Below are positions 26,932-35,611 of a stretch of 44,260 nucleotides of DNA, in pieces. Location of the stretch: positions 1-44,260 of the forward strand of contig JACDCB010000112.1 of the NCBI GenBank assembly GCA_013694585.1, read 5' to 3'. The stretch comes from Candidatus Nitrosopumilus sp. Its GTDB lineage: Archaea > Thermoproteota > Nitrososphaeria > Nitrososphaerales > Nitrososphaeraceae. Positions within the stretch are counted from its first letter, which is position 1; each line of letters starts with the position of its first letter. Both the position numbers and the translations under genes were made by a program. The notes below the pieces were generated by a model. That model was not told the DNA's origin. It worked only from the letters and a program-made list of their open reading frames with translations, and did not search any database.

Positions 26932-27870
26932 TCAGAAGGGTTCTTCATGCAGTAATGCGGACAATAAAGCTGCCCTTAACTCTTTTCCATAAGCAGCTTG
27001 CTTAAAATAAAGAGCATTTACAGTATTATCAATTGATGGAGATATTTCATCAACTCTAGGTAATGGATGCAAAATAGAAACATCAGGTTTTGACTTCTTC
27101 AAGATATTTTCATCAATAGTATACAATCCTTGAATTTTTTTATATTCTTGAAGATCCGGAAATCGTTCTCTTTGAATACGTGTTACATAGATCACATCTA
27201 ACTTTTCTAACAAGTCATCAGATAATTCAATATGATGATACATTTTTACCTTATTTGAGATATCGTATATCGATTCGCTTCGAACTTTTAGTATAGATGG
27301 AGAAACAAGATGAATTTCGACTTTATAATTAGATAGTGCATAGATTAGAGAATATACTGTACGGCCATACTTTAGATCTCCTATTATTCCAATAGATAGA
27401 CCATCAATTCTTTTTTTTTCTTTGAATATGGTATAAATGTCCAACATAGCTTGAGTGGGATGTTCTTCGCTACCACTACCTCCATTTATCACAGGTTTTT
27501 CGGATATTTCACAAGCATATCTACTCGAACCATCAGAAGGATGACGTATCAAAATAACATCTGAGTATAATGAGATGGTCTTAATGGTATCGGCATAACT
27601 TTCTCCTTTCATGATAGATGAAGAATCTACATCAGATATTCCCAAAGATCTGCCCCCAATAGAGGACATAGCAGATTCGAAACTTAACCGGGTTCGAGTA
27701 CTATACTCATAAAAAATATACCCAAGAATTAAGCCTTTTGCGATTTCCCCACGCTCTCTAGATTTCAATGTTTGTATTTTATCAGTAATATCAAAGAGAT
27801 AAGTAAAATCATCTATATCGAAATCACGAATGGACACTATATTGCGATTAAAAAATCTATTTTTAATCAT
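26932..27870 (-). CDS. pyrB: aspartate carbamoyltransferase catalytic subunit
   Basis: Catalyses carbamoyl phosphate plus aspartate to carbamoyl-aspartate in pyrimidine synthesis. 312 aa, the usual length. The carbamoyl-phosphate site YEYSTRTRLSFE (about 53-64), the Lys-containing loop IMKGESYADT (about 87), HPTQAMLDIY (about 137) and the C-terminal HPLPRVDEI are all intact. The PyrI regulatory chain is not next to it on either side, so the enzyme may be unregulated or its partner is elsewhere. It follows nrdJ by 65 bases on the same strand, linking pyrimidine and deoxynucleotide supply. Confidence 0.94.
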   Translation of the reverse strand: MIKNRFFNRNIVSIRDFDIDDFTYLFDITDKIQTLKSRERGEIAKGLILGYIFYEYSTRTRLSFESAMSSIGGRSLGISDVDSSSIMKGESYADTIKTISLYSDVILIRHPSDGSSRYACEISEKPVINGGSGSEEHPTQAMLDIYTIFKEKKRIDGLSIGIIGDLKYGRTVYSLIYALSNYKVEIHLVSPSILKVRSESIYDISNKVKMYHHIELSDDLLEKLDVIYVTRIQRERFPDLQEYKKIQGLYTIDENILKKSKPDVSILHPLPRVDEISPSIDNTVNALYFKQAAYGKELRAALLSALLHEEPF

Positions 27871-27935: not shown

Positions 27936-30689
27936 TTATCCTGAGCCACAGCTACTAAACCCACATTCAATGCACATGTTACAGCCTTCTGTAATAATTA
28001 AGTAATTTTTACAAACTGGGCACGCTTCTTTATTGTTCTCTGTTCTAGAATGAGTATACAGGTCAGGTTTAGCATTAATTGATACGGTATCGGATTCAAA
28101 ACCATCAGGTTCTAGTTGGTTATCGATTGTATTAGTTGCAACTGTATTTTGATCACTTGATTCATAATCCTTAAAAATTGGATTTACCTGATCAAGAACA
28201 TAAGGTTCATGTATGTTTGCTAAAATATAATCATGCAAATACATACTTGGTTTCACCTGGAATCTTTTTTCACGATCATTACCAGTAATGTGTAAAACTT
28301 GTTCATTCCTAGAGCCATCTCTATAGATAGTCACCCCTTTTAATCCAAATTCATGGGCAAGTAGATATGCACACTTTACATCTTCAACTGTAACATCTCC
28401 AGGCATATTGATTGTTTTTGCAATCGCATTACTAATCCATTTTTGCCACACAGCTTGAGCCATAACATGATCGGTCCAGTGAATATCTATAGCTGTAACA
28501 AATAGCTTTTGCATCCATTCAGGTATTTCATTTATGCCACGTACTGATCCATAATTATTTGCAATTTTTATCAAAATTTCATCAGTATATAACCCATGTT
28601 CTTTCATGATATTCTCAAAAATCTTATTTGTATAAAAGAACCTACCAACAGTAACACGTTTTTCAAACACCAAGGCAAAAACAGGTTCAACACCATTAGA
28701 TACATCCGAAATCATTGAGAGAGTACCAGTAGGTGCGATAGTAGTAGTCCATGAATTTCTGATTCCATAATTTTTAATTTTTCCTATTAAAGAGTCCCAA
28801 TCATAATAATGTGAATCCTTAGGGATCTCATGATAACCTGACAGCGGAAGATCGCCATTTTTATACTCAGTCTGATCAAACAACGGGAAAGCCCCGCGAG
28901 ATTTTGAAATGACGACACTTTCATCCATACTAAAATATGACAAAGTTTCAGCCAGTTTACTCATAAATTCATATCCTTCCTTTGAATCATAGGGGATCCG
29001 TAGCATAAACAACAAGTCAGCTATACCCATAATCCCCAATCCTATTCGCCTGGTTAGTTTTGTATTAATATCAATTTCCTCTACAGGATATTTGTTAACG
29101 TCAATAATATTATCCAAAAATCGTGTAGCAGTCCTGATGGATTGTTCATATTTGGGCCAATCAAATTCATACATTCCATCTGCTTTTCGTTTTACAAATT
29201 TGGATAAATTAATGGATCCGAGATTACATGACTCGCATGGATACAAGGACTGTTCACCACATGGATTAGTTGCTCTAAGCGGTCCCCCTTTAGCATCGAT
29301 ACAAGGATTGTATTTATTTATATTATCAAAAAATATGACACCAGGTTCAGCACTCTTCCATGCACTCAAAGCTATTAGCTCCATTAATTGATGAGAATCA
29401 ATATTTTTCACATTAGCCTTGGTTCGTGGATTTTTCAAGGAGTATTTATGGTCCTCTTTATTTACTAATGATTTCCAAAAATCCGACCAGATTCCTACAC
29501 TTACGTTAAAATTTTCATACATCCCTGGTTTAGTTTTCATTGTAATGAATTTTTCAATATCAGGATGCCAAGATTCCAAAATACCCATATTTGCACCACG
29601 CCTTTTTCCACCTTGTTTAACTACGTCTGTAATGGAATCGATAATTTGCATAAAAGAAGTTGGTCCTGATGCAACACCACTAGTAGATGCCACTATATCC
29701 CCTTCAGGTCTTAAATCAGAATAATTTATTCCCACACCTCCTCCAGATTTAAAAATCATAGCTGCATCAGTGGATGATTTCATTATAGAATACATATCAT
29801 CAGGCATATCAAGAACAAAACAGGCAGATAGTTGCCCCAACCTGGCACCAGCATTCATAAGAGTTGGAGTATTAGGAAGAAACTCATTAGAAACCATCAA
29901 ATTATAATATTCCGTTATTTTGTTGCCATAATTGCTCATTTTTCCTTCTGCAATCAATCGTAAAAGATCTTTAAAGCTTATCTTCATTCTTCCCAGTTTT
30001 GCCTCATCAATATATGATCTGATTAATGCTTCAAAATGATATTTATTAAAATAATAACTTCCAATTTTTAACTTGCTATCGAAATCATCTAATTTCTTAT
30101 AATATAATTCTGCTTCAGATAAAGTCTGTGTATGGCTATCATGAAAATCATATACTCGAGAGTCATGAATAATATCCGATATAGCAACCAATATTGCGAC
30201 TCGTTCAAATAATTGCTTGGGACCTTCGACAATTTCACCATTATTATCCCTCAATAAATATCTTGAAGACAAAACACGCAGGGAATTGACATCCAGGGTT
30301 TTATCCACTTCATCAAGATCTTTTTTATTTAAGATCTTCATTTTCATTTCCCTTAATTTTCTTCTTTCATGACGATATAGGATGTAAGCCTTAGCGGTCT
30401 CAGCCAAACCTTCTTCAATTAAAATTGATTCAACCATATCTTGAACATCTTCGACGCTCAAAACATGATCTTTATGAATGGACTCCAAGTATCCATTTTT
30501 AATAATTTTATTTACCAATTTTGATGCAAGTAATTCAGCCAATTTATGATCGGGTTTACCAGCTGCAACCAATGCTTTGTAAATTGCATTCGATATTTTT
30601 GATTGCTCAAAATCCACTATTGTACTATTTCTTTTTTTTATATGTACAATGGTTTTATTTTTTGAATCATGAAGATCAGTTTCAGCCAT
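27936..30689 (-). CDS. nrdJ: class II (B12-dependent) ribonucleotide reductase
   Basis: Adenosylcobalamin-dependent ribonucleotide reductase, 917 aa. An N-terminal ATP-cone (about 12-105) should give overall activity control by dATP/ATP. The barrel shows ACFVLDMPDDMYSIM, the GGVGINYSDLRPEG loop, QGGKRRGANMG, the catalytic NPCGEQ with its cysteine, and PTGTLSMISDVSNGVEP. The C-terminus has a Cys-rich tail (CPVC, GCNMCIEC, SSCGSG) that would deliver reducing power to the active site. It needs no oxygen and no second subunit, and thaumarchaea make cobalamin. The regulator-like NrdD fusion lies 235 bases upstream on the same strand. Confidence 0.94.
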   Translation of the reverse strand: MAETDLHDSKNKTIVHIKKRNSTIVDFEQSKISNAIYKALVAAGKPDHKLAELLASKLVNKIIKNGYLESIHKDHVLSVEDVQDMVESILIEEGLAETAKAYILYRHERRKLREMKMKILNKKDLDEVDKTLDVNSLRVLSSRYLLRDNNGEIVEGPKQLFERVAILVAISDIIHDSRVYDFHDSHTQTLSEAELYYKKLDDFDSKLKIGSYYFNKYHFEALIRSYIDEAKLGRMKISFKDLLRLIAEGKMSNYGNKITEYYNLMVSNEFLPNTPTLMNAGARLGQLSACFVLDMPDDMYSIMKSSTDAAMIFKSGGGVGINYSDLRPEGDIVASTSGVASGPTSFMQIIDSITDVVKQGGKRRGANMGILESWHPDIEKFITMKTKPGMYENFNVSVGIWSDFWKSLVNKEDHKYSLKNPRTKANVKNIDSHQLMELIALSAWKSAEPGVIFFDNINKYNPCIDAKGGPLRATNPCGEQSLYPCESCNLGSINLSKFVKRKADGMYEFDWPKYEQSIRTATRFLDNIIDVNKYPVEEIDINTKLTRRIGLGIMGIADLLFMLRIPYDSKEGYEFMSKLAETLSYFSMDESVVISKSRGAFPLFDQTEYKNGDLPLSGYHEIPKDSHYYDWDSLIGKIKNYGIRNSWTTTIAPTGTLSMISDVSNGVEPVFALVFEKRVTVGRFFYTNKIFENIMKEHGLYTDEILIKIANNYGSVRGINEIPEWMQKLFVTAIDIHWTDHVMAQAVWQKWISNAIAKTINMPGDVTVEDVKCAYLLAHEFGLKGVTIYRDGSRNEQVLHITGNDREKRFQVKPSMYLHDYILANIHEPYVLDQVNPIFKDYESSDQNTVATNTIDNQLEPDGFESDTVSINAKPDLYTHSRTENNKEACPVCKNYLIITEGCNMCIECGFSSCGSG

Positions 30690-30924
30690 ATAACATTTAT
30701 ATATTATTTATAGATCGTTTATATTAATTTCGATAGCTTATTTTATAAATTAGCGAGTTTCAAATAAGAATTTACATCCAGGCTGAAGTATACCAGATGT
30801 AATAGGCTTTCTTATTATCATGGAACGAATTAAATAATTATGAATAATCTAACAGGTATGCAAAAATGGCTAAAGGATTCTAAAATGGATGTAGTTTATT
30901 CGACATGTACTGAATATATTGATA

Positions 30925-32976
30925 TTAATTAAATGTGACAATATTTCGAGATCCACATACAGAACAAACATCGCTACTTACCACTCGAGTTCCGCATATA
31001 GAACATATGCGATTCTCCTCAAATATATCAAAGTAGGGAATAACATGAATAGATTTTTGTAACAATTCCACCATTTCCTGAGGAGAAACATCACTGGTAA
31101 GTAGTTTTACGTACAAACCTCCAGCCATAAGATTATCCAATTCAATTAGATTTTTAGATAATGAATCTTCATCATCAAACATTTTCTTGGTAATAACCAG
31201 TCCTTGCGAATATGATTTAAAATCGTGAGTCAATTTACCAAATTTCTCGGAATCAAGGTCTACAAATCTTGTTGAACTAGAATCATTTATAATGGAAACG
31301 CCAAATTTGTCTGTGTTATGCTGGCCGAAATCAAGTAGTACGTCGTTAGCCGTTTTAACCACTTTCTTTACAATATCAAATCCCATATCTTTAGAAAATC
31401 CTAAAATATCATGAACAGATTCATCTAACCCGGTCAAGTTAACAATTATAGAAGTAGAACCTACCCGTGGAAAGCCAATGGTATTGGATAGAGCAGGCAA
31501 TATATCTTGCCGAATGTTTTCTAATAATATCTCCTTCTTTAGTAATAAAGTACTTACCGATGGCCTCATTAACAAGGCTAATTTAGTCCTAAAATAGGTT
31601 TCATCTTTATTTGACTGATAAGCTAGACGTGGCAGATTTATAGAAAGTGAATGTAGTGCGACGATTGGCAATCCCATATCTTGATGCATCTTATGAATAC
31701 CCCTACTACTACGAACCGATTTTTGTGAGAGAGATATTCTACCACCTAACTTTATGATCTTTGTAAGAAGGGACAACATGTCAGTAGATAAAGAATTTGC
31801 AAAAGTTATAAAAAGTCCAAAATTGGGCAGAGATACTTGTTCTATATAAGACAAATATCCACTTAGCATTTGAAGTAAACGCTCACTGTTTTCATTTCCC
31901 CTTAAAACAAGTGTTATAAATGGAGATCCTGCATACTGCATTGAAACAGAAGATGAAATCAATGAAAGTGAAAAATATTCAGATATTTTATCAATAGCAT
32001 AATCACCAAAAATTTTATCGATGTTTTCTATGACTATCTCTCTGGAAACTTCTCTTTGAAGTAATGAGACCAAGATAGGCAGCGTGATATTTAATTTATG
32101 AGCATGTGTAGTTCTAGGTAAAAAAAGAAAATGGCCTTTGAGGTTCAAGTCCTTGTTTACTTGTTCTATATCAACAAAAACAGTATCAGCGCCTATGCCC
32201 CAATGACCTAATGCATCTAAATGAACCTCACCACTATAATGCATATCCATAATATCTTTTTGAAAATTATTTGCAAAATAATCAGAAAACACTTTTTCTG
32301 AAACATCTGTAATTAGGTCATTTATGCCATTTCTTAATGAATCATCATTATTGAGGAATTTTTTACTTAAGTCAAAAATGGGAATTCCGATTCTAATTAA
32401 CTTATTCATTTGTTCCTCTAAGCCATGCTCTAACAATACATTATTTACGCAATCTCTAATTAGTCTTGATGTCAAGTAAGAGGTTGAGAGTTTATATATT
32501 TTATTTTCCACCTCTTCTGTAATTTTTGTAGCTTGTTCTAAAGACATATTTGCTTCTCTAACCAAGGATTGAATTATTTTGTGTGGATTGAATTCTTCGA
32601 TAGTCTGATGACTGGTTCTAACATACATCTTTCCACTTTCAACTATAGACTTTTCTTCTATCTGTCTAGCCAAGTTTAATACCAATTTACCTAGATTAGT
32701 AATGGTATACCTCCTTTCTCCCTTATTCAGGGCTACCAAGGATTGTCTCAATAGTTTTCTTAAATGATATGCAAATTTTCCAGATTCTTTCTTTGATTTA
32801 AATCCCGCCAGAGATTTTAATTCAGAGTACGTTAGAGGTCCTTTATTATTAAGAATGCGCAAGATATCAATTCTATTAGGACTGGCCATTACTGAAAAAA
32901 TCATTCGTACTCGTTTGGATGTGGATTCCAAAACTCCACGTTTAGTTTCGGATGGGGGCAGATATGTATACCTCAA
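30925..32976 (-). CDS. winged-helix / ATP-cone / NrdD-like pseudoenzyme fusion
   Basis: 683-aa fusion. Residues about 22-110 are an ArsR-like winged helix (VMASPNRIDILRIL, YAYHL-type recognition helix at 69-80, wing at 85-92). About 117-205 form an ATP-cone (MYVRTSHQTIEEFNPHKII...), the nucleotide-sensing domain of NrdR and reductases. About 205-650 follow the body of anaerobic reductase NrdD (GEVHLDALGHWGIG, SLSINLPRLAYQS, NLTGLDESVHDILG, TRFVDLDSEKFG). A zinc ribbon closes it (Cys658, 661, 671, 674). The protein stops nine residues after the last zinc cysteine, where NrdD would carry its RxxGY glycyl-radical loop. The only other cysteine is Cys176 in the ATP-cone, so the catalytic thiols are also gone. 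It is probably a nucleotide-responsive repressor rather than an enzyme; nrdJ lies next to it. The TTG start fits the TATA box. Confidence 0.82.
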   Translation of the reverse strand: MRYTYLPPSETKRGVLESTSKRVRMIFSVMASPNRIDILRILNNKGPLTYSELKSLAGFKSKKESGKFAYHLRKLLRQSLVALNKGERRYTITNLGKLVLNLARQIEEKSIVESGKMYVRTSHQTIEEFNPHKIIQSLVREANMSLEQATKITEEVENKIYKLSTSYLTSRLIRDCVNNVLLEHGLEEQMNKLIRIGIPIFDLSKKFLNNDDSLRNGINDLITDVSEKVFSDYFANNFQKDIMDMHYSGEVHLDALGHWGIGADTVFVDIEQVNKDLNLKGHFLFLPRTTHAHKLNITLPILVSLLQREVSREIVIENIDKIFGDYAIDKISEYFSLSLISSSVSMQYAGSPFITLVLRGNENSERLLQMLSGYLSYIEQVSLPNFGLFITFANSLSTDMLSLLTKIIKLGGRISLSQKSVRSSRGIHKMHQDMGLPIVALHSLSINLPRLAYQSNKDETYFRTKLALLMRPSVSTLLLKKEILLENIRQDILPALSNTIGFPRVGSTSIIVNLTGLDESVHDILGFSKDMGFDIVKKVVKTANDVLLDFGQHNTDKFGVSIINDSSSTRFVDLDSEKFGKLTHDFKSYSQGLVITKKMFDDEDSLSKNLIELDNLMAGGLYVKLLTSDVSPQEMVELLQKSIHVIPYFDIFEENRICSICGTRVVSSDVCSVCGSRNIVTFN

Positions 32977-33001
32977 CTACAAAGAGCAGTCTGATTATTA
33001 G

Positions 33002-33009
33002 TATATAAA
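33002..33009 (-). promoter_or_regulatory. TATA box for the NrdD-like regulator gene
   Basis: TTTATATA on the minus strand is centred about 29 nt before the TTG at 32976, so the message should start a few bases before the TTG. It supports that start over internal ATG codons. Confidence 0.5.
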
Positions 33010-33058
33010 TAAAACTATCAATCAGGATAAGGATGAGATGCTCTGGTTTGATTAAAAC

Positions 33059-33673
33059 CTAGCTTTCCAATAATACTTGTCCGCTATTGAGTATATCATC
33101 CTTTAAATTAATACTCGGTCTTTTTGAAATTACAGAAACTGGAACTTCTGGTAGTTTTTCTTTTGCCTCGTCTTCCAAACTATTTTGAACATCACTTAAT
33201 ATGTCCAAGGCATCTTTATCGATTACAGATGCTATTTTACCAGCATCGGTGTCAATATTAGAATTAATTAATACATCACCAGTTAGTGTATGAATGTCAT
33301 TCAAAACATCGGTTGCAGACGGAACAGCCTTTGAAAGATCTTTCTGTATATCTTGGAGCATTTCTACTGTCGGATTAATGGTATCCATTATAGTTGAGAA
33401 TTCGGTTATCGTAGTGAATCGGATTGAAACTACCTCTAAGGCCGTAGTTGCATTGTGAGTGTTCTTTCTAAGTCTTCTCATAGCAGATAGCTCATTTGCT
33501 ATGATATTTGCACGTGCGTTATTTCCTGATTTTATATTTTGAGTTATTTTGGAGCTAAAATTAGCATCAATATTAGAAAATTTTGTATCCATTATTTTGA
33601 GTTGCGAAATTTGCGTATTAATCACTGATATAGCGCTGTTAACGTCATAATAGAACTGGCCACTTTTTTCCAT
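33059..33673 (-). CDS. CdvB paralogue (ESCRT-III/Snf7-like)
   Basis: 204-aa Snf7-domain protein of the archaeal Cdv cell-division system. The body is a series of long helices (SAISVINTQISQLKIMD, NNARANIIANELSAMRRL, TALEVVSIRFTTITEFSTIM, TVEMLQDIQKDLSKAVPS) as in CdvB proteins. The C-terminal part (PEVPVSVI) has a proline-rich motif of the MIM2 kind that could bind the MIT domain of CdvC, although this is only a resemblance. Thaumarchaea carry several CdvB paralogues, and this one is not next to cdvA or cdvC. It lies upstream of the NrdD-like regulator on the same strand, 82 bases away. Confidence 0.8.
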   Translation of the reverse strand: MEKSGQFYYDVNSAISVINTQISQLKIMDTKFSNIDANFSSKITQNIKSGNNARANIIANELSAMRRLRKNTHNATTALEVVSIRFTTITEFSTIMDTINPTVEMLQDIQKDLSKAVPSATDVLNDIHTLTGDVLINSNIDTDAGKIASVIDKDALDILSDVQNSLEDEAKEKLPEVPVSVISKRPSINLKDDILNSGQVLLES

Positions 33674-33766: not shown

Positions 33767-34162
33767 CTACTGATATTTTTGCAATATTAAACCATGTTTT
33801 TCGTGGAAATCAATCACTTTGATTTTAGAACCTAATGGCAAATCAGAAGGGGAAGATATTCCAGGCAGAAACCCGGAAACATTTATGTCACAATCATCTA
33901 ACTTAAAAATAACCCAAGCATACGAATTGACATCTTCAAATCCTTCTGGTGCGACTGCTTGAATTGTAAATGTTACAACTGTGCCCTTACCGCTGTATGA
34001 TATTTGTTTAAAAGAGCTAGAAAAACATTTATCACAATAATATACGGTTTCTAATATAATGTTATTGCATTTATTGCACCGATTAAGAAGTATGTTCCCA
34101 TTCTTCGCAAATTCGATGAACCGTTCTCGGGAGCTTTGATTCTTTGGCTTTGATTGGGTCAA
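33767..34162 (-). CDS. DUF35 zinc-ribbon/OB-fold partner of thiolase
   Basis: 131-aa acyl-CoA-associated protein. A rubredoxin-like zinc ribbon (RCNKC and YYCDKC, about 24-45) is followed by an OB fold (SGKGTVVTFTIQAVAP, YAWVIFKLDD, LPLGSKIKVIDF). In archaea such proteins bridge thiolase and HMG-CoA synthase and channel acetoacetyl-CoA. Here the thiolase gene lies directly upstream, 15 bases away, while HMG-CoA synthase is not in the window. The start is TTG at 34162, supported by a strong ribosome-binding site GGTGAT seven bases upstream. Confidence 0.85.
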   Translation of the reverse strand: MTQSKPKNQSSRERFIEFAKNGNILLNRCNKCNNIILETVYYCDKCFSSSFKQISYSGKGTVVTFTIQAVAPEGFEDVNSYAWVIFKLDDCDINVSGFLPGISSPSDLPLGSKIKVIDFHEKHGLILQKYQ

Positions 34163-34169
34163 TTACAAT

Positions 34170-34175
34170 ATCACC
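34170..34175 (-). promoter_or_regulatory. ribosome-binding site of the DUF35 gene
   Basis: GGTGAT matches the archaeal 16S rRNA 3' end and lies seven bases before a TTG, which decides that TTG as the start. It is a Shine-Dalgarno site inside an operon, in contrast to the leaderless first genes of the window. Confidence 0.55.
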
Positions 34176-34177
34176 AT

Positions 34178-35338
34178 CTATTTTATTTTCTTGAATATAT
34201 GCACAGCTGCGCTAGCCCCGGTAGCACCAAAATTATGAGTCATAGCTATCTCAGCATCTTTAACCGTTCGTTCTCCAGCTTTATTCGTAAACTGTTCAAA
34301 CACTTCTACAACTTGGCCAACACCAGTTGCTCCTATTGGATGACCTTTAGATTTTAACCCTCCGGACGGGTTAACAGTAATATCGCTATTTAATCTGGTA
34401 CGTCCTTCTCTAACAGCCTGAGCAGCAGATCCCTTGGGAAAGAATCCTAGATCTTCGATGTCTATTAATTCGGCTATGGTAAAACAATCGTGTACTTCAA
34501 CAAAATCAATATCTTTTGGAGATAGATTTGCCATTTTATAGGCTTGACGGGCCGCTTCAACGGTACTTGGAATAGTGGTAATATCTTTTCTAGATTGGAC
34601 TGAAGCAGGTGATGCACCCCTGCCTGAACCCACTACTTCCATATATGAATTTCCGCTTTTTTTGGCGAAGTCCTCATTGCATAATATGACAGCTGAGGCA
34701 CCATCAGAGAAAGGACAACAATCATACAACTTTAGTGGAGATGCGACCACAGGAGATTTTAACACATCTTCTACAGTAATCTTCTTCCTAACATGGGCTT
34801 TTGGATTAAGAAAACCATTTTCATGATTTTTAACAGCAACTCTGGCCAGATCCTCCTCTGTCGCTTTATAAGTAGTAAGATAGGCCCTAGCCATCGAACC
34901 AAAAAGACCTGGAAATGATGCTCCGTTACCCCCCTCATAAAAGAAATCAGAACAATAGGAAAAGAGTGTTGTGCTTTCAACTGTACTGGTATGAGTTATT
35001 TTTTCAACTCCCAGTGCTAAAACACAATCATAAAATCCAGCAGATACATTTGCAAATGCTTCTCTAAACATTACAGAGCCAGAACCACAAGCAGATTCGA
35101 TTGTAAGTCCTGGAACATCAGGGATCCCAAGGTTACTCATAATTACAGGAGCCATGTGCACCTGTTTATCAACCACACCAAAGACGTTTGAAATATATCC
35201 CGCTTTCACGTCTCTTGGAGTTATACCAGCTGATTCAATGGCATCTCTTGAAGCATTCAAGGCTATTTCAATAATACTTTCATTTAATTTGCCATACTTT
35301 GTACTGCCAGCACCAAGTACATAGACCTTTTCACCCAT
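34178..35338 (-). CDS. thiolase (acetyl-CoA C-acetyltransferase type)
   Basis: SCP2/archaeal-type thiolase, 386 aa from ATG 35338. The nucleophile is Cys84 in ESACGSGSV, and the C-terminal GGLKSKGHPIGATG supplies the catalytic histidine. HNFGATGASA follows, where the second cysteine of bacterial biosynthetic thiolases is absent, as is usual for this archaeal class. Probable roles are acetoacetyl-CoA formation for the mevalonate pathway or its cleavage in the HP/HB cycle; sequence alone cannot separate them. The frame is open from 35386, but the protein family starts at MGEKVYVLGAG, and ATG 35338 lies 26 nt after a TATA box. Co-transcribed with the DUF35 partner. Confidence 0.88.
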   Translation of the reverse strand: MGEKVYVLGAGSTKYGKLNESIIEIALNASRDAIESAGITPRDVKAGYISNVFGVVDKQVHMAPVIMSNLGIPDVPGLTIESACGSGSVMFREAFANVSAGFYDCVLALGVEKITHTSTVESTTLFSYCSDFFYEGGNGASFPGLFGSMARAYLTTYKATEEDLARVAVKNHENGFLNPKAHVRKKITVEDVLKSPVVASPLKLYDCCPFSDGASAVILCNEDFAKKSGNSYMEVVGSGRGASPASVQSRKDITTIPSTVEAARQAYKMANLSPKDIDFVEVHDCFTIAELIDIEDLGFFPKGSAAQAVREGRTRLNSDITVNPSGGLKSKGHPIGATGVGQVVEVFEQFTNKAGERTVKDAEIAMTHNFGATGASAAVHIFKKIK

Positions 35339-35361
35339 ATATCTTAGAAAGGGCTTTAGCA

Positions 35362-35370
35362 TAATAAAAA
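35362..35370 (-). promoter_or_regulatory. TATA box for thiolase
   Basis: TTTTTATTA on the minus strand is centred about 27 nt before ATG 35338, placing the transcription start at the start codon and ruling out the upstream start at 35386. Confidence 0.5.
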
Positions 35371-35611
35371 TGTAAAGTGGATGCAAAAAATATCAATATG
35401 GTTGATTCTGTTTTGATTTGAACATTACATGAATAATAATCGGATACACCCATTACAGTGACCTTCTATAGGTAACACTATAAATTTTACTCACATGTAT
35501 CACAAGTAAATAAAATAGGGGAAAAATATTTAGGTCAAGTTCAGTAACGCTTTATACAAGTAATCCTAATTCAAAATGTCTCTGGCACGGTCAAATTCAA
35601 TTACCATCTAT

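Follow-up and report, generated by a model that had tools for sequence, protein, structure and literature searches.

An apparently inactive class III ribonucleotide reductase chain as a probable one-component regulator of nucleotide synthesis in archaea

INTRODUCTION

How deoxynucleotide (dNTP) supply is controlled in archaea that lack NrdR is the question raised by a gene in a 44,260-nucleotide stretch of Candidatus Nitrosopumilus sp. DNA (contig JACDCB010000112.1, order Nitrososphaerales; this whole stretch is the window below): it appears to encode a ribonucleotide reductase (RNR) of the class III, or NrdD, type that bears a DNA-binding head and has parted with its catalytic residues. What would such a protein be for? 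The relatives of the source genome are ammonia oxidizers by name. ATP-cones, one of which is present in this protein, are described as binding ATP or dATP and as shifting RNR assembly (PMC11226230). NrdR, whose domains are described as a zinc ribbon and, after it, an ATP-cone (PMC12176259), is reported to employ its cone similarly, and to be rare in archaea (PMC9110341).

DOMAIN ARCHITECTURE AND FOLD

The gene occupies positions 30925–32976 of the minus strand and encodes 683 residues from a TTG start. The initial annotation of this DNA had read it as a winged helix, an ATP-cone, an NrdD-like body and a zinc ribbon, and the Pfam matches and the positions of the cysteines bear this reading out. 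The winged helix-turn-helix (residues 26–100; 32677–32901, minus strand, as are all parts of the gene) scores above the cut-offs of two families, DUF7347 (PF24038; 40.4 bits against 27.6) and, within about residues 26–100, HTH_20 (PF12840; 29.4 bits against 27.0). It is followed by the ATP-cone (residues 117–190; 32407–32628; PF03477, 44.0 bits against a cut-off of 25.8), recovered again by a genome search, then by the body (about residues 205–650; 31027–32364), devoid of catalytic Cys, and finally by a four-Cys C-terminal zinc ribbon as in NrdD (Cys658, Cys661, Cys671 and Cys674; 30955–31005). A single copy of the gene was found in its own genome. Directly upstream, at 33059–33673, lies an ESCRT-III-like small protein that exceeds the Pfam Snf7 cut-off and falls far below the NCBIfam CdvB cut-offs. 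Before this neighborhood come a small gene and one for a thiolase (33767–35386); an apparent thiolase, recognized by eye, also precedes the family's locus in families f6 and f28 (L049, L063), which suggests an old chromosomal position of the gene.

Profile matches to the body are partial in this protein and far more complete in its relatives. The NRDD profile (PF13597) covers residues 407–678 with 55.6 bits (cut-off 26.2) and finds no match in residues 205–406; the NCBIfam model TIGR02487 gives 55.1, below its equivalog cut-off of 326. Relatives from other families do better: a bridging one, L038, matches PF13597 at 1.3e-63 over its residues 205–733, nearly the whole model, and another, L033, matches TIGR02487 at 1e-76 over residues 227–773. 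An AlphaFold model built on 59 sequences has a mean pLDDT of 77; values are mostly 85–95 from residue 300 on and below 50 over most of residues 1–113, the winged helix being the low-confidence part. With this model as query, Foldseek matches 1–36 are all class III RNRs (E 2.6e-19 to 5e-11), their alignments spanning 536–718 columns, gaps counted; class I RNRs and other proteins, including glycyl-radical enzymes, come after them. The fits are loose, with TM-scores by target of 0.50–0.66, rmsd of 4.8–14.3 Å and identities of 10–15%. Judged by these profiles and the predicted fold, the body is homologous to the class III RNR barrel, and the likeness to NrdD that had been proposed for residues 205–650 stands.

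The nucleotide-binding positions of the ATP-cone are less straightforward. In NrdR, V48, K50, E56 and K62 are reported to be required for nucleotide and DNA binding (PMC9110341). By spacing, Val119, Glu127 and Lys133 of the NrdD-like protein fit V48, E56 and K62, and Thr121 takes the place of Lys50; its neighbor Arg120 is invariant (26/26). The presence of Thr121 at the Lys50 place renders nucleotide binding less certain than the ATP-cone profile match alone suggests. In the body, Asn447 is invariant as well (26/26); it belongs to an NLPR motif, and its place is presumably that of the NrdD active-site Asn.

LOSS OF THE CATALYTIC RESIDUES

NrdD is described as having a thiyl Cys in its finger loop (MGCR/MCCR) and a conserved βA Cys (PMC9669993). 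The NrdD-like protein has neither. Its cysteines are Cys176 and the four zinc ligands, exactly as the initial annotation had listed them, and the chain stops nine residues past the ribbon, at the place of the NrdD radical loop. The RxxGY glycyl-radical site is absent from this C-terminus, and NRDD profile positions 532–562, which form the radical end, find no match in the protein. The pseudoenzyme that had been proposed is thus borne out insofar as the window's protein keeps no catalytic Cys and no glycyl-radical site: with nothing left on which radical chemistry depends, it reads as catalytically dead.

Relatives place this loss in a wider setting. In an alignment with genuine NrdDs, the βA Cys (column 371) occurs in 0/45 family members, the window's included and one being gapped there, and the four zinc Cys are kept in most of these 45. 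An R..G[YFW] motif is found in the last 70 residues of none of 121 members (the window's protein and L031–L150, among which L118 is truncated 3′), and in the last 60 residues of 30/30 genuine NrdDs taken as a control. A further sample, the 80 named loci, comprises the best 80 of 556 relatives from a contig scan; one of them (L175) has the motif, which lies within the ribbon instead of behind it. By pattern, a zinc ribbon is present in 97 of the 121 members and missing from 24 (one of them the cut L118), the ribbon-less members belonging mostly to f11, f16 and f31. Relatives also display worn radical-loop tails, such as SRVSAK, SRISAR and TRVYGK. The finger loop, by eye, reads like Y-T-A-S-G-F-R-L in many of them; a motif search for it gave a match in 71/93 proteins, some misplaced (e.g., L038, L064), and none in 22. 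Segments read by eye show a Cys at the finger-loop place in three relatives, L042, L108 and L107, which have no Gly at the radical place. Conversely, a Gly persists behind the ribbon in some members of f6 and f23, and those looked at have no Cys in the finger loop (both by eye). Given the three Cys-bearing relatives, the loss of the finger-loop Cys is claimed for the window's protein and not for every relative.

SELECTION AND DISTRIBUTION

The gene is under purifying selection. Against five close relatives, overall dN/dS is 0.08–0.13, with 0.01–0.05 for the winged helix (computable in four of the five comparisons), 0.01–0.03 for the ATP-cone (two computable, the rest saturated) and 0.12–0.17 for the body. 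The nearest relatives among the best 80 of 556 are labelled Candidatus Nitrosocosmicus (L151–L155, 95–72% identity). Within the order, a match at 1e-20 is present in 111/121 genomes, 84/87 of those of good quality and 44/46 genera. In a sample of the phylum, 146/200 genomes have a match at 1e-3, the weak ones among them including ATP-cones of true RNRs. Cross-family matches outside the order mostly end at about residue 260–330, and the proteins of f11, f16 and f31 are shorter. Titles of the named loci point to Nitrososphaera/Nitrosopumilus groups or Thaumarchaeota, except for L182 and L199, which are titled bacterial and are taken for mislabelled bins. Phage records yielded no match to the protein; one plasmid record matched, its best place being residues 119–260, in a gene annotated nrdD. 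Genome G006 has two paralogs, a long one of 743 and a short one of 636 residues (L043 and L044).

A tree was built from 43 family members together with 21 genuine NrdDs (a quick, unrooted search with some long branches and no bacterial sequences, from which 17/81 rows, mostly near copies, had been removed). In it the family lies on one side of a branch with an SH-aLRT of 100 and so forms a separate clade. Among the matches listed, titles and abstract starts of the open-licence literature contained no description of an NrdD-like pseudoenzyme family.

GENOMIC NEIGHBORHOOD

Genomic linkage, as read from sequence, is the best clue to the protein's function. Downstream by 235 bp, as the initial annotation had stated, lies nrdJ on the same strand (27936–30689, minus), a class II (B12-dependent) RNR with its own ATP-cone (TIGR02504, 741 bits against a cut-off of 400); no other PF02867 match came up in the genome. 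The search for ATP-cones turned up a third gene elsewhere in the genome, encoding a stand-alone protein of 135 residues (L234:1375–1782, contig C233). Overlooked in the initial annotation was pyrB, aspartate carbamoyltransferase (26932–27870, minus; TIGR00670, 331.6 bits against 236.95), which lies 65 bp after nrdJ on the same strand, such that the local order is NrdD-like gene, nrdJ, pyrB.

The link to RNR recurs in relatives. Of 31 loci sampled from the order, 30 have nrdJ as the co-directional next gene downstream; the exception, L070, has 2 kb of contig downstream without nrdJ. Among the best 80 relatives of 556, 67 have it directly downstream. In the 13 other named loci, the contig ends less than 500 bp on in eight, after about 500 bp in L173 and L184 and after 1.5 kb in L178; L177 and L189 have contig room, and nrdJ is not next door. 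These two have instead an opposite-strand open reading frame after the NrdD-like gene (L177:6284–7015, L189:10212–10946), which we take to resemble an XPF-type nuclease. Twenty further order loci were drawn, L287 from the window's own genus and the remaining 19 from outside its family; an RNR is directly downstream in 19 of them, at gaps of 67–525 bp, and the contig of the twentieth, L274, ends within the NrdD-like gene. As for pyrB, 10 of the 15 further order loci whose contig continues over 1.2 kb past the RNR have it next. It lies 2.9–5.0 kb beyond the NrdD-like gene in 14 of the 53 named loci (from the best 80 of 556) that have more than 4.6 kb downstream; among order loci L071–L099 it is nearby in only one of 29 (L099), so the pyrB link is absent from most of the taxonomic family to which these loci belong. 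The nrdJ frame is 880–920 residues long in most of the order and about 1050–1280 in L084, L172, L191, L276, L277 and L280, perhaps owing to inteins or to starts set too far upstream.

Outside the order, 90 loci were taken from 89 of the 115 genomes with a match, one genome giving two and the weakest matches being left out. With small unlabelled frames skipped, the next gene on one side is an RNR or pyrimidine gene in 47/90 (36 pyrB, pyrI or pyrH; 11 RNR), against a background of 5/318 at gene ranks 3–4 in the same loci; the families are not independent and inherited synteny inflates such counts, and the arrangements differ. One of the 11 RNR loci is doubtful (L068 of f9, a 78-residue fragment whose best profile is the NrdD-like family's own), leaving 46/90 without it. 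Neither kind of gene stands next in 43/90 loci, and neither occurs in f6, f8, f13, f19, f23, f30, f32, f37 and f38. Pyrimidine genes were assigned through similarity clusters, one representative of each being confirmed: PyrB and PyrI by Pfam, UMP kinase (pyrH) by TIGR02076 above its cut-off. The RNR neighbors are co-directional and downstream of the family gene. Many of the pyrB neighbors are convergent (f4, f20, f22, f27, f33, f41) and hence share no promoter with it. In f11, f16 and f31 pyrB is divergent, and in f10 and f15 pyrH is divergent and pyrI convergent; the divergent genes of these five families may share a control region with the NrdD-like gene. Four loci hold the NrdD-like gene, NrdD and PyrB together.

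The class of the adjoining RNR is not constant. It is either one of several class II NrdJ forms with different best models or an NrdD, which then falls into either of two distinct clades, with RITGY/RVTGY ends (L042, L046, L052, L053, L069) or RVVGY ends (L108), which are presumably the archaeal and bacterial types, respectively. Both clades occur within one genus, g42 (L042 and L108). At L063:9889–12104 the adjoining NrdD is split into overlapping frames of 680 and 109 residues by a frameshift or an assembly error.

NrdR (TIGR00244, model length 147) has no match in this genome, which is 90% complete, and TIGR00244 is not among the NCBIfam matches of the NrdD-like protein. True NrdR exceeds its cut-off in 13/200 phylum genomes, all of f4, and in none of the order genomes. 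All 13 have NrdD on the same contig at most 2 kb from NrdR, and in 12 f4 genomes sampled the NrdD-like family gene adjoins pyrB instead. This genome has a single NRDD match, at 1.4e-14, the E-value given by the NrdD-like protein; best NRDD matches in 31 order genomes are similarly weak (4.8e-7 to 3.0e-23), as against 1e-72 and better in genomes with a genuine NrdD.

CANDIDATE CONTROL DNA

The nrdJ upstream region (30690–30924, minus) is a candidate promoter or operator. Its last 60 bp, directly before nrdJ (30690–30749), are 56–60/60 identical in four of five Nitrosocosmicus relatives and 48/60, ungapped, in the fifth; beyond them, the upstream sequence hardly aligns among the more distant of these relatives. 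The segment 30690–30749 contains ATCG...CGAT ends 13 bp apart. An element at 30709–30735 has no second match in the window and one perfect copy in the genome, plus one copy with three mismatches inside an open reading frame (C266:7211). The region upstream of the NrdD-like gene itself (32977–33058, minus) has a TATA-like TTTATATA at 33002–33009, 26–33 bp before the TTG and seen by eye in close relatives too, which may be a promoter element. Upstream regions read by eye and searched with one pattern, the pyrB upstreams being left unaligned, revealed no operator common to the nrdJ, pyrB and NrdD-like gene promoters. An inverted repeat, TTGAC...GTCAA, noticed by eye upstream of Nitrosopumilaceae nrdJ, was dropped for want of apparent co-variation.

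FUNCTION AND ALTERNATIVE EXPLANATIONS

A worn-out RNR fused to a DNA-binding head and often found beside DNA-precursor genes is probably a sensor and switch, not an enzyme. We judge it likely, on the sequence comparisons and the predicted fold, that a dead class III RNR chain was turned into a one-component transcription regulator of nucleotide synthesis. The initial annotation had proposed a regulator of nrdJ. The linkage to RNR behind this proposal is strong, but the scope appears wider: linkage extends over RNRs of both classes, II and III, and over pyrB, pyrI and pyrH, so that "regulator of nrdJ" is probably too narrow. The best reading is of a nucleotide-sensing regulator of pyrimidine and deoxynucleotide synthesis, apparently in NrdR's role. 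That the protein would bind nucleotides, bind DNA and control transcription is what we infer. It would form an NrdD-like dimer whose assembly is altered by ATP or dATP at the ATP-cone; dNTPs or NTPs might act too, at the old specificity and substrate sites. The winged helix would then bind the control regions of nrdJ (nrdD elsewhere) and of pyrB, pyrI or pyrH, and expression of these genes would be lowered when nucleotides are plentiful. Repression as the sign of control is argued by analogy with NrdR.

How much of the chain still senses is a separate matter. Tentatively, the whole RNR chain, its allosteric cone included and perhaps the pockets for specificity and substrate too, may serve as the ligand part of a transcription factor, reading both NTP substrates and dNTP products and setting pyrB, pyrI, pyrH and RNR jointly. 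It would then be an ancient regulator of the dNTP pool in much of the archaeal phylum to which the ammonia oxidizers belong, one that stayed in place while the RNR itself was exchanged between classes II and III. A narrower form of the main reading, which it does not exclude, is quite conceivable: a DNA-binding regulator whose ATP-cone is the sole sensor and whose RNR body is a decaying dimerization scaffold without ligands. The far slower evolution of winged helix and cone than of the body speaks for such a scaffold, as do the non-order cross-family matches that mostly stop at about residue 260–330 and the 24/121 members, mostly short proteins of f11, f16 and f31, without a ribbon by pattern. 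Yet the body remains constrained, with dN/dS well under one at 0.12–0.17, and the invariance of Asn447 fits poorly with mere scaffolding.

It is unlikely that the protein exerts post-translational control, as a regulatory subunit bound to RNR itself and perhaps to aspartate carbamoyltransferase, with the winged helix secondary. RNR chains do dimerize, and the NrdD-like gene often precedes an RNR gene; but within the genus conservation is highest in the winged helix and the cone, pyrimidine linkage also occurs without RNR, and the partner RNR is of class II or class III depending on lineage, which argues against one conserved protein interface. A surviving enzyme, of unusual chemistry or served by a separate radical donor, is very improbable. 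The Cys at the thiyl place of L042, L108 and L107 and the Gly after the ribbon in some f6 and f23 members would favor this, except that, by eye, neither residue accompanies the other in the proteins looked at, the βA Cys is missing from all 45 aligned members, and the window's protein has none of the three residues. The loss of catalytic parts could finally betray a decaying pseudogene or an annotation accident, a notion that is contradicted by the open frame, a dN/dS near 0.1 and the gene's presence in nearly all good-quality order genomes, and that we regard as scarcely credible.

If the regulator reading is true, the family would offer a concrete, widespread candidate for dNTP control in archaea without NrdR, with named targets that include the one RNR large chain turned up by the genome search. 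It would also be a clear case of an enzyme becoming a DNA-binding regulator, with worn intermediates, namely degenerate radical loops and finger-loop Cys, visible in relatives.

COMPARISON WITH KNOWN SYSTEMS

Three known systems each share a part of this protein. ArsR-like and DUF7347 winged-helix regulators have a similar DNA-binding head, but in this protein an ATP-cone and an entire RNR catalytic chain serve as the effector. NrdD (PF13597, TIGR02487) shares the RNR body, the N-terminal ATP-cone and the C-terminal four-Cys ribbon, and provides the closest PDB structures. It differs in having the catalytic Cys and the glycyl radical, both of which are gone from the NrdD-like protein, which has gained a winged helix; moreover, the NrdD-like family gene occurs beside genuine NrdD or NrdJ. 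NrdR is alike in combining a DNA-binding domain with an ATP-cone and in its genomic linkage to RNR genes of different classes. NrdR has no RNR body; in the NrdD-like protein such a body is complete, with a winged helix ahead of it and a ribbon at the C-terminus. The suggestion of an archaeal NrdR counterpart of different origin, already made in the initial annotation, is thus supported by the linkage and by a genome in which NrdR itself finds no match.
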